41,109 bases of DNA from Armatimonadota bacterium (GTDB lineage Bacteria; Armatimonadota; Zipacnadia; Zipacnadales; UBA11051). The notes beneath the pieces are model-generated. The model searched no databases. It was not told the origin of the DNA and saw only the letters and a program-made list of their open reading frames with translations. Position 1 is the stretch's first letter, and each line of letters opens with the position of its first letter. Shown piece by piece: positions 21,076 to 23,910 of the stretch. Made by a program: the position numbers and the translations under genes. Location: contig JABLXH010000038.1 in NCBI GenBank assembly GCA_013178155.1, positions 1 to 41,109 of the forward strand. Reading direction: 5' to 3'.

Positions 21076-21453
21076 ATGGCAAACGGCCATGGCCGCAAAG
21101 TCTGGATCTTTCCCGATGGCGACCTGCCGCCGGCAGGCGACCCCAACCTGCCCCTGGAGGGGCATGAGTCGCTCATCGTCCTCAACACGGGTGATGAGGA
21201 CGCGCAGATCGAGATGGACGTCTACTTCACCGACCGGGAGCCCGAAGTGGGGTTGAGACTGGTGGCTCCGGCCCGCCGCGTCACCTGCTTCCGCATGGAC
21301 AAGCCGGTCGGCGACCGCCAGTTCCAGGTGCCCTTCGGGCAGTATGCTTTGCGCCTGCGGTCCGATGTGCCGATCGTTGCCCAGATCGGCCGTGCTGACG
21401 TGCGCCAGCCCAACCTGGCTTACTACACGACGATGGGGTACGGGCTGGACTAG
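21076..21453 (+). CDS. ASRT-family (sensory rhodopsin transducer-like) protein
   Basis: A 125-aa soluble protein matching the Anabaena sensory rhodopsin transducer family (PF07100) along its whole length. It opens with GRKVWIFPDGDLPP, then ESLIVLNTGDEDAQIEMDVYFTDREP, a central RRVTCFRMD, and closes with YALRLRSDVPIVAQIGRADVRQPNLAYYTTMGY. Known members are small beta-sandwich proteins forming tetramers. Most genomes with the family lack rhodopsin, and a sugar-related role has been suggested. No rhodopsin gene is in this window and glycosidase genes flank it on both sides, which fits the sugar-related view. The ATG has AGGAGA 9 bp upstream. The start of the next gene is 192 bp away across a repeat cluster. 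Confidence 0.85.
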   Translation: MANGHGRKVWIFPDGDLPPAGDPNLPLEGHESLIVLNTGDEDAQIEMDVYFTDREPEVGLRLVAPARRVTCFRMDKPVGDRQFQVPFGQYALRLRSDVPIVAQIGRADVRQPNLAYYTTMGYGLD

Positions 21454-21457
21454 GTGT

Positions 21458-21607
21458 TGTCACTCCCGTGGTCGGAGCGCTCACGTGAGCGCGACGCCGT
21501 CTGCCAGGCCTGTCACTGCCGTGGTAGGAGCGCTCACCTGAGCGCGATACCGTTTGCTGCACCAACACTGCAGAGAAAGGCTGTCGCGCTCTGGTGAGCG
21601 CTCCTAC
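21458..21607. repeat. REP/REPIN-like palindromic repeat cluster
   Basis: Two direct 43-bp copies, 21458-21500 and 21511-21553, differ at five positions. Each contains a short hairpin; in copy one GCGCTCACGTGAGCGC (21477-21492) is a perfect 16-bp palindrome. A third, inverted copy of the core lies at 21584-21607 and matches the complement of 21524-21547 at 23 of 24 positions, so copies two and three form a long cruciform around a ~36-nt spacer. A doublet of inverted REPs is the arrangement called REPIN in other bacteria. No RAYT transposase is visible here. Confidence 0.8.
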
Positions 21608-21645: not shown

Positions 21646-23910
21646 ATGAAGATCACCGACACCATGCCCTTTGCCCGGGAGCTCATCTCGCCCACCTACG
21701 CGGAGAACTACCGCCGAGCTGGCGCGACCGCCGGCCCCAACGACGTCACCATCGGTCCGGACTGGGCGCTGGCGCTGTATGCCACCGACGAGTTGGCACA
21801 GGTCGCCGCCGACCACCTGCGCCACTTCCTCATCGACGCCATGGGCACCGAGCTGGCTTGCTGTGGTACCAACCGGCGGATTGTGCTGGACGTGGACCCG
21901 GCGCTAGCTGAAAGCCCCGAGGCTCACCGCCTGCGGGTCACGCCGGATGCCGTCGACGTCACCGGCGCCGGACCGGTCGGCGTGCTGCAGGGCGTGTTCC
22001 GGCTGGAAAACCTCATGCGTGAGCGCGGGGGCCCCTTTGTCCCGCTGGGCGAGGAAGTCCGGACCCCTCTCTTCAAGCACCGCATCCACCGCTCACCCCT
22101 CTCGCCCTTCTACGTCGAGGAACTGACCGGCGAACGCGGCGACCCCTTCAATGCCGACTGGTTCTCCCCCGGCATGGACTACCCGGCGTACATCGAGGAG
22201 GACGCCGGGCCAGACATGTTCTACCATGACAACCTGCTGCTGCGGATGGCCGAGCACGGCTTCAACGCCATCTGGCTGCGCGGCTCCTTCCGGCACTTCG
22301 CGAAGTGCAGCGTCTTCCCCGAGTTCGGCCGCGACTCCGACCGGATCCTGTCGCGCCTGCGGGCTCTGGCTCAGCGTGCAGGGCGCTTTGGCATGAAGGT
22401 TTTCCTGTACCTCAATGAGCCGCTGGGAATCGCCGAGCATGACGAGTTCTTCGTGAACCACCCCCAGTGCCGCGGCTCGGCCTCGGTGTTCAAGCCGATG
22501 ATTAACTTGTGTTCCAGCACGCCCGAGGTGAAGACCTACCTGCGGGAATCCGCCGAGTACATCCTCAGCCACGTGCCCGAGTTGGCCGGATTCGTGATGA
22601 TCACGGCCTCCGAGTACCCCAGCCACTGCTGGTGCCGGTCGGGGATCAACCCCGAGAACCCCAGTGAGCGCATCGGCGAGGTGGCCTCCTGCCCGCGTTG
22701 TCGCGAGCGTACGCCGCAGGACGTTGTTGGTGAGATCGTCGGCCTCATCCGCGAGGGCGCCACGGCGGTCAACCCTGAAGCCGAGATCATCGCCTGGAAC
22801 TGGAGCTGGGCGATGTGGGAGGAAGACCCGCAGGAGAGCGTGTTGGCCGCGCTGCCGCCCGAGACCATCGTCATGGGCGACTACGAGCGCGGCGAACCGA
22901 CGGAGGCCTGTGGCTTTGCCTACACCAATGACGAGTACAACATCAAAGTCGTCGGCCCCAGCCAGCGCTTCAAGGGTGTGGCGAAGTTTCTGCAGGACCG
23001 CGGCCGACCGGTCTATGCCCGCATCCAGATCGGCACTACCCACGAGAACCCCGACATCCCATACCTGCCGGTGCCCACGCAGATCGCCCGCAAGTACCAC
23101 ACCCTCCGCGAGACCGGCGTTGCGGGCCTGATGACCTGCTGGAACTTCGGCAACATGCCATCCCTGGCGACCGAGGTCGCGGGGGAGTTCACCTGGGCCC
23201 CGCAGCCCAGCGTCGAGGCCGGCCTGCGGGCCGTCGCGGCCCGGCACTTCGGCCCGGAGGCCGCAGACGACGTAGTCGCCGCCTGGGAAAGGCTGAGTGT
23301 GGCCCACAATGATTTCCCCGGCAGCATCCCCGTGATGTACAACGGCCCCATCAGTCGCGGCCCGGCCTTCTTGTTCATCTTTGACCAGGTAGACAAGAAG
23401 TTCCCCAACTCCTGGCTCCTGGAAAAGGACATCGAGGGAGACCGGCTCGATTGGGCCGTTCCCTTTGGCCCGGAGAAGGTACTGGAGTGCTACCGCTCCG
23501 AGGTGGCCAAGGCAGCGGATGGCCTGGCTCTCCTGGAGCAGGCCCTGGCGCGCGCTACCGGCGATGATCGGCGCCGCCTGGCGCGTGAGCTTGGAGTGGC
23601 GAAGTTCCATGTCATTCAGACCACCAGCGCCGCGAACGTCGTGGACTTCCTTCTGACCCGCAATGCCTATTACGCCAGCACCGACCCGGCGGAGAAGATG
23701 CGGCTGCTGGACCGCATCGAGGCTATCTGTCGCGATGAGGTTGCCAACGCCGAGGCCTCTTTGCCCCTTATGGCGGCTGACCCGCGCCTGGGTTGGCATG
23801 GCGAGGCCTATGGCTACATGATCAACCGCGAGCTGGTGGAGCAGAAGCTGGCGCGTCTGCGGGAGCTGCTGGACATCCGCCTGCCCGCGGAACGGGCGGT
23901 GTTGGCATGA
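21646..23910 (+). CDS. Glycosidase-like TIM-barrel protein with GH20/GH67-N-type domain
   Basis: A 754-aa protein without a signal peptide. Residues about 35-130 form the small alpha/beta domain found before the barrel in GH20, GH67 and GH84 enzymes (LYATDELAQVAADHLRHFL ... VGVLQGVFRLENLM). A TIM barrel then runs to about 500 and a helical C-terminal region to the end. Candidate acids include E258 (LYLNEPLG) and E323 (MITASEYPSHCWC). A CxC plus CxxC set (C328, C330, C349, C352) follows E323 and resembles a metal site, as in DUF4838-like proteins. I cannot assign a GH family or substrate. The start is the ATG with GGAG 8 bp upstream, seven codons inside the longest frame. Its stop overlaps the DUF89 gene start (ATGA). 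Confidence 0.7.
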   Translation: MKITDTMPFARELISPTYAENYRRAGATAGPNDVTIGPDWALALYATDELAQVAADHLRHFLIDAMGTELACCGTNRRIVLDVDPALAESPEAHRLRVTPDAVDVTGAGPVGVLQGVFRLENLMRERGGPFVPLGEEVRTPLFKHRIHRSPLSPFYVEELTGERGDPFNADWFSPGMDYPAYIEEDAGPDMFYHDNLLLRMAEHGFNAIWLRGSFRHFAKCSVFPEFGRDSDRILSRLRALAQRAGRFGMKVFLYLNEPLGIAEHDEFFVNHPQCRGSASVFKPMINLCSSTPEVKTYLRESAEYILSHVPELAGFVMITASEYPSHCWCRSGINPENPSERIGEVASCPRCRERTPQDVVGEIVGLIREGATAVNPEAEIIAWNWSWAMWEEDPQESVLAALPPETIVMGDYERGEPTEACGFAYTNDEYNIKVVGPSQRFKGVAKFLQDRGRPVYARIQIGTTHENPDIPYLPVPTQIARKYHTLRETGVAGLMTCWNFGNMPSLATEVAGEFTWAPQPSVEAGLRAVAARHFGPEAADDVVAAWERLSVAHNDFPGSIPVMYNGPISRGPAFLFIFDQVDKKFPNSWLLEKDIEGDRLDWAVPFGPEKVLECYRSEVAKAADGLALLEQALARATGDDRRRLARELGVAKFHVIQTTSAANVVDFLLTRNAYYASTDPAEKMRLLDRIEAICRDEVANAEASLPLMAADPRLGWHGEAYGYMINRELVEQKLARLRELLDIRLPAERAVLA

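Follow-up and report, generated by a model that had tools for sequence, protein, structure and literature searches.

The window, that is, the whole 41,109-nt stretch of DNA that was analysed, contains at positions 21458-21607 a dense cluster of repeats, and the question is what these repeats are and how they came to lie there. An earlier note described them as three copies of a hairpin-forming element within 150 bp, two direct and one inverted, and all three were found: copy 1 at 21471-21494 (+ strand, GTCGGAGCGCTCACGTGAGCGCGA), copy 2 at 21524-21547 (+ strand, GTAGGAGCGCTCACCTGAGCGCGA) and copy 3 at 21584-21607 (- strand, GTAGGAGCGCTCACCAGAGCGCGA). In the explanation that we hold with high confidence they are three GTAG-type REPs, two of them arranged as a REPIN-like inverted doublet, and belong to a family whose dispersal, in trans, is very probably the work of a RAYT encoded on contig C130 of the same genome.

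The 24-nt element is laid out as a GTAG foot, GA, a 6-bp stem enclosing a 4-nt loop, and a final GA, and is predicted to fold into a hairpin (-6.8 kcal/mol for copy 1). The sequence of copy 3 is identical to the genome-wide consensus, and in copy 1 the foot is changed to GTCG. Copies 1 and 2 lie within a direct, head-tail duplication (21458-21557, + strand) of a 47-nt stretch that includes flanking bases (21458-21504 and 21511-21557, 87% identity, spacing 53), and therefore look like the product of a local duplication. Copies 2 and 3 are the left and right arms of the head-head doublet (21524-21607, assigned to neither strand), which has a 36-nt spacer and as a single strand would form one long hairpin; the arms differ at one base, which bears out the 23/24 match counted previously. 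The 84-nt fold of this pair reaches -36.3 kcal/mol compared to -13.7 for shuffled sequences (z -9.8; 0 of 200 shuffles as good), and the pair is the longest close inverted repeat of the 41-kb window. If the window is taken by itself, GTAGGAGCGCTCA, a 13-mer, is no more than modestly over-represented: allowing 2 mismatches it matches five times, compared to a mean of 1.12 in shuffled sequences (one of 100 shuffles reaches five).

All three copies are contained in a 192-nt gap between two + strand genes, and the cluster starts 5 bp past the stop codon of the upstream one. The earlier note had placed it between glycan genes, which does not hold for the upstream neighbour (21076-21453), an Anabaena-sensory-rhodopsin-transducer-like (ASRT) gene (PF07100, E 1e-30), and holds only weakly for the downstream one (21646-23910), a glycoside-hydrolase-like (GH) protein with a weak GH20b match that scores 24.1 bits against GH20 domain 2, under the 26.1 cut-off. 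We compared seven relative loci, chosen among the matches to the downstream gene. ASRT homologues 75-85% identical were present in six of them, and in five (L126, L127, L130, L131 and L132) the homologue is directly upstream, so that the gene pair is kept. The GTAG element is absent from the ASRT-GH gap of these five, where the gap is also shorter than in the window; L126 and L127, for instance, have about 90 nt. The ASRT homologue lies farther off in L128, and none was found within the L129 locus.

Copies and a RAYT gene in the host genome

The host genome assembly (5.53 Mb, 211 contigs, 95.6% complete) was searched for further copies. The 13-mer occurs exactly 11 times, against none for the reversed-pattern control, and 45 sites match the 20-nt core of the element when 3 mismatches are allowed, against two for the control. 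The family is thus dispersed and mostly extragenic, as expected of GTAG REPs, with a copy number that is low for REPs. Two stem subfamilies, GCGCTC/GAGCGC and GCGGTC/GACCGC, have the foot and the ACCA loop in common, and the loops of the family are ACCA, ACCT or ACCG. A generic pattern allowing one mismatch gave 44 sites, 24 of them with exact head and foot (GTAGGAGCG...CGCGA). Nine copies have kept one and the same 24-nt sequence, which argues for a fairly recent spread. Intergenic positions account for 33 of the 45 sites, in surroundings that are predicted to be about 90% coding (binomial 3e-23; the calls rest on a simple home-made codon-usage gene caller). The other 12 are inside predicted genes and include two head-head pairs, at G000:C141:23619-23691 and G000:C112:119011-119076, in frames of 889 and 363 aa, so that some REPINs may have landed in coding DNA.

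The 45 sites group into 22 singlets, 10 doublets and one triplet. Neighbours less than 150 bp apart form 12 pairs where 0.07 would be expected at random, seven head-head, four tandem and one tail-tail; the seven head-head pairs are inverted doublets, as in REPINs, and the one in the window folds into a hairpin. The spacers of these REPINs are 16-45 nt long, with no common sequence seen by eye. Three singlets are accompanied by an inverted partner in decayed form (score 18-21 of 24), a score of at least 18 being reached by 7 of 1100 random positions of the same loci, a control that may land beside real copies. The singlet to doublet ratio is 2.2 (22:10), or 19:13 if the decayed partners are counted, while REPINs are expected to give a ratio under 2.

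A Pfam Y1_Tnp search of the genome yielded two genes, on C113 and C130. The C130 gene (C130:18253-18726, - strand; L013 1363-1839) scores 106.8 bits with the RAYT model NF047646 (cut-off 80) and only 17.3 bits with the IS200 model, and its sole PDB match is the E. coli TnpA_REP 4er8 (1.6e-10). It is flanked by its cognate REPs, with one on the 3′ side (18213, +) and an inverted pair on the 5′ side (18750, +; 18819, -); a RAYT bordered by the same element is what the earlier note had suggested looking for. A search of the genome with the C130 protein gave no second match at E 0.001. Since other copies and a RAYT gene both exist, the RAYT/REPIN reading proposed there is supported, with the reservation that doublets are not the main form of the REPs in this genome.

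The reading frame of the C130 RAYT (158 aa) is intact, and its tyrosine motif, YMLGNPV, has the Y-x3-NP form and aligns with that of 4er8. Its HUH motif, however, reads HLR, with Arg in place of the second histidine, whereas His (H-x-H) stands there in the remaining 33 of the 34 RAYTs aligned. In PMC3733652 the HUH motif and the tyrosine are conserved across all RAYTs aligned there. The protein is thus related by descent to RAYTs, with its catalysis doubtful: because HLR replaces H-x-H, it may no longer cut DNA, and with Arg in the place of the second histidine it is doubtful that it can still move REPs. The HLR motif is either catalytic damage or an error of the 211-contig draft.

RAYTs and elements in related genomes

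Matches to the C130 RAYT were obtained in 41 of 61 genomes (its own included), the best identity to any relative found being about 41%. The RAYT model scored above cut-off in 86 of 201 sampled genomes of the window's phylum, which indicates that REP/RAYT systems are frequent in that phylum. An inverted GT[AG]G pair with matching arms brackets the gene, within 450 bp on both sides, at 17 of 34 RAYT loci, and does so in 0 of 680 shuffled flanks; these loci comprise 30 among the matches listed and four others, and several are truncated where their contigs stop and were scored as misses. Tandem GTAG/GTGG hairpin arrays, with stems that differ by lineage, border the RAYT genes of L047, L048, L049, L056, L063, L066 and L068. 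On a Candidatus Chlorohelix plasmid a 16-bp tandem repeat array lies directly 3′ of a RAYT-like gene (L110 1946-2138).

The generic pattern GTAGGAGCG-n10-CGCGA was found exactly in 17 of 121 genomes. In 10 of the 121 it occurs at least 5 times, with a control count of 0 in those 10, all of which also gave a RAYT match; the rest of the 17 have one or two matches, which equals the control level in other genomes. Two genomes out of the order's 41 show the loop type of the window's family: the window's own, with 37 sites, and G001, with three. In related genomes the elements keep this head and foot, while their loops are different and their stems covary. A TTCY-loop REP pair on a single contig (G006:C374:9756-9852) is typical of another family of the order, f3; this contig is perhaps misbinned or reflects transfer.

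Covariation was evaluated on 28 different 24-mers, taken among the matches listed, whose head and foot are exact, a set that omits the window genome's own sites with a mismatch in head or foot and a few sites of G050, G051, G083 and G112. In this set 97% of cells are paired and 34 are changed on both sides, a level reached in 0 of 500 shuffles, the outer three of the six stem pairs being fixed by the search pattern and hence uninformative. The elements of related genomes can be read as a code, with a constant foot, a lineage-specific loop and stems altering in compensated pairs. This fits what PMC8266576 reports for group 3 RAYTs, for which positions in GTAG and in the loop are important, and it makes the question of which part of a REP a RAYT reads testable by RAYT/REP swaps.

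A tree of the RAYTs, built without L057, L062, L071, L075 and L077 (frames truncated or over-long), placed the C130 RAYT at an unresolved base, its nearest rows by path being L047, L046 and L045. The clade sets tested were picked after viewing an earlier tree. A single clade for the GTAGGAGCG-type RAYTs was neither rejected nor shown (p 0.31 for four own-phylum rows; p 0.22 for nine GTRGGA-type rows), and a single clade of all RAYTs of the phylum was rejected (p 0.0004).

Mechanism and alternatives

The copies, their hairpin and pairing, the intergenic bias, the flanked RAYT, the insert-free orthologous sites and the covarying stems were observed directly; that the C130 RAYT moved these copies is what we infer. 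By analogy with RAYT biochemistry elsewhere (PMC8266576; PMC3116915), with the lagging strand exposed as single-stranded DNA the RAYT would bind the hairpin together with its 4-nt loop and the GTAG foot, its tyrosine would cut nearby, and strand transfer would copy or move the REP unit into other intergenic DNA. Against this explanation we count the HLR motif, the excess of singlets over doublets, the unlike spacers, the low copy number, the 12 of 45 sites within genes and the unresolved tree.

The position of the cluster, 5 bp past the ASRT stop codon and between two + strand genes, and the very stable 84-nt fold would also suit functional RNA hairpins of an ASRT-to-GH transcript (terminator, attenuator or mRNA-stabilising), repeated by chance or convergence. 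We consider this very improbable, as the 24-mer is found again at numerous unrelated loci and is missing from the five relatives that retain the gene pair. Identity with an Rfam RNA or an intrinsic terminator was rejected: Rfam gave only sub-threshold microRNA models (best 31.8 bits, compared to a gathering score of 78), and the cluster has no terminator-like site with a T run. A secondary regulatory role of the cluster is possible. Slimmer still is the chance that the repeats are MITEs or terminal-repeat remnants of another transposon, such as a DDE element or the IS200 TnpA element on C113 (L012). The genome does encode such an IS200-type TnpA (NF033573, 61.5 bits, cut-off 55), but the element borders the RAYT and not the IS200 gene, from which its closest copy on that contig is some 12 kb away, and its build, a GTAG foot set 2 nt from a short perfect stem and a tail of GA, reproduces the GTAG-1 layout given in PMC3733652. 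With no copy near it, the C113 gene was rejected as the source of the repeats.

A variant compatible with dispersal by the RAYT, to which we give a substantial minority share of belief, is that the family is a fossil, its spreading RAYT dead (HLR) or lost and its copies decaying. The replacement of HxH by HLR, the exact head and foot in only 24 of the 44 generic-pattern sites, the predominance of singlets and the three decayed partners would all agree with it; the nine identical copies and the intact RAYT frame speak against it, and a one-residue difference in a 211-contig draft could be an assembly error. It is improbable, in our estimate, that the RAYT is cleavage-dead yet still binds REPs, is kept for a role in the host and reads foot and loop but not stem sequence; this idea draws on the loss of a metal-binding His together with the intact frame, the flanking REPs and the two compensated-stem subfamilies that share foot and loop.

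Comparison with known systems

The repeats are a RAYT-associated GTAG REP family, each a short palindrome that carries a tetranucleotide of the GTAG type on one side, and in architecture they are like the Pseudomonas and Xanthomonas REPs of GTAG-1 / RAYT group 3. With GTAG-1, as described in PMC3733652, they share the GTAG foot, an unpaired dinucleotide between foot and stem, a short stem and conserved bases on the opposite side; GTAG-1 dimers, in Pseudomonas, Xanthomonas and others, are mostly 20-100 bp apart. The Xanthomonas REPs GTAGGAGCGCGCTCGCGCGCGA and GTAGGAGCGCACCtGGGCGCGAC (PMC2817692, Table 1) have the GTAGGAGCG head and the CGCGA foot in common with the window element. The window's family differs from GTAG-1 in its ACCA/ACCT/ACCG loops and in a host genome that does not look proteobacterial, although a non-proteobacterial GTAG-1 host may already have been published.

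The doublets here resemble the REPINs of Pseudomonas fluorescens SBW25 (PMC3116915) in being inverted pairs that form one hairpin with conserved arms and a less conserved spacer, in being mostly intergenic and in having a RAYT encoded in the genome. They differ in that singlets outnumber doublets (22:10), spacers of 16-45 nt are unlike one another and copies are far fewer; REPs usually exceed 100 per genome (PMC2817692), and the 45 of this family are few.

The C130 RAYT is likely to be a member of RAYT group 3 / TnpA_REP subclass 2.5 (PMC6006769; PMC8266576), of which the published subclass is mostly limited to Xanthomonads and Pseudomonads. It has in common with the group the DH-L context of the HUH motif, WQ, D at the position of E. 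coli E100 and Tyr-x3-Asn-Pro; its length is 158 aa compared to about 151, and foot plus stem take 12 nt here and 10-13 nt in the short REPs of the group. Its second HUH His is Arg, and YMLGNP stands in place of YI[VI]ANP. The nearest plasmid-borne RAYT, from Pseudomonas, is 41% identical and lies beside GTGGGAGCG...CGCGA repeats.

The earlier note had regarded the occurrence in a seemingly distant phylum as noteworthy. The host genome is indeed not proteobacterial-looking, its RpoB matching E. coli at 962.7 bits, under the top PDB matches (1147.6 and 1093), and no paper linking RAYTs with Armatimonadota was recognised in the literature searched. GTAG REPs beyond the Gammaproteobacteria, however, are already published, from Planctomycetes/Verrucomicrobia, Cyanobacteria and Chloroflexi (PMC3733652), and the family therefore belongs to a known kind. 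REPs and REPINs are seldom described beyond Proteobacteria, and the unusual point here is the HUH residue. A Pseudomonas/Xanthomonas-style REP architecture, together with its RAYT, is extended to a genome of non-proteobacterial appearance.
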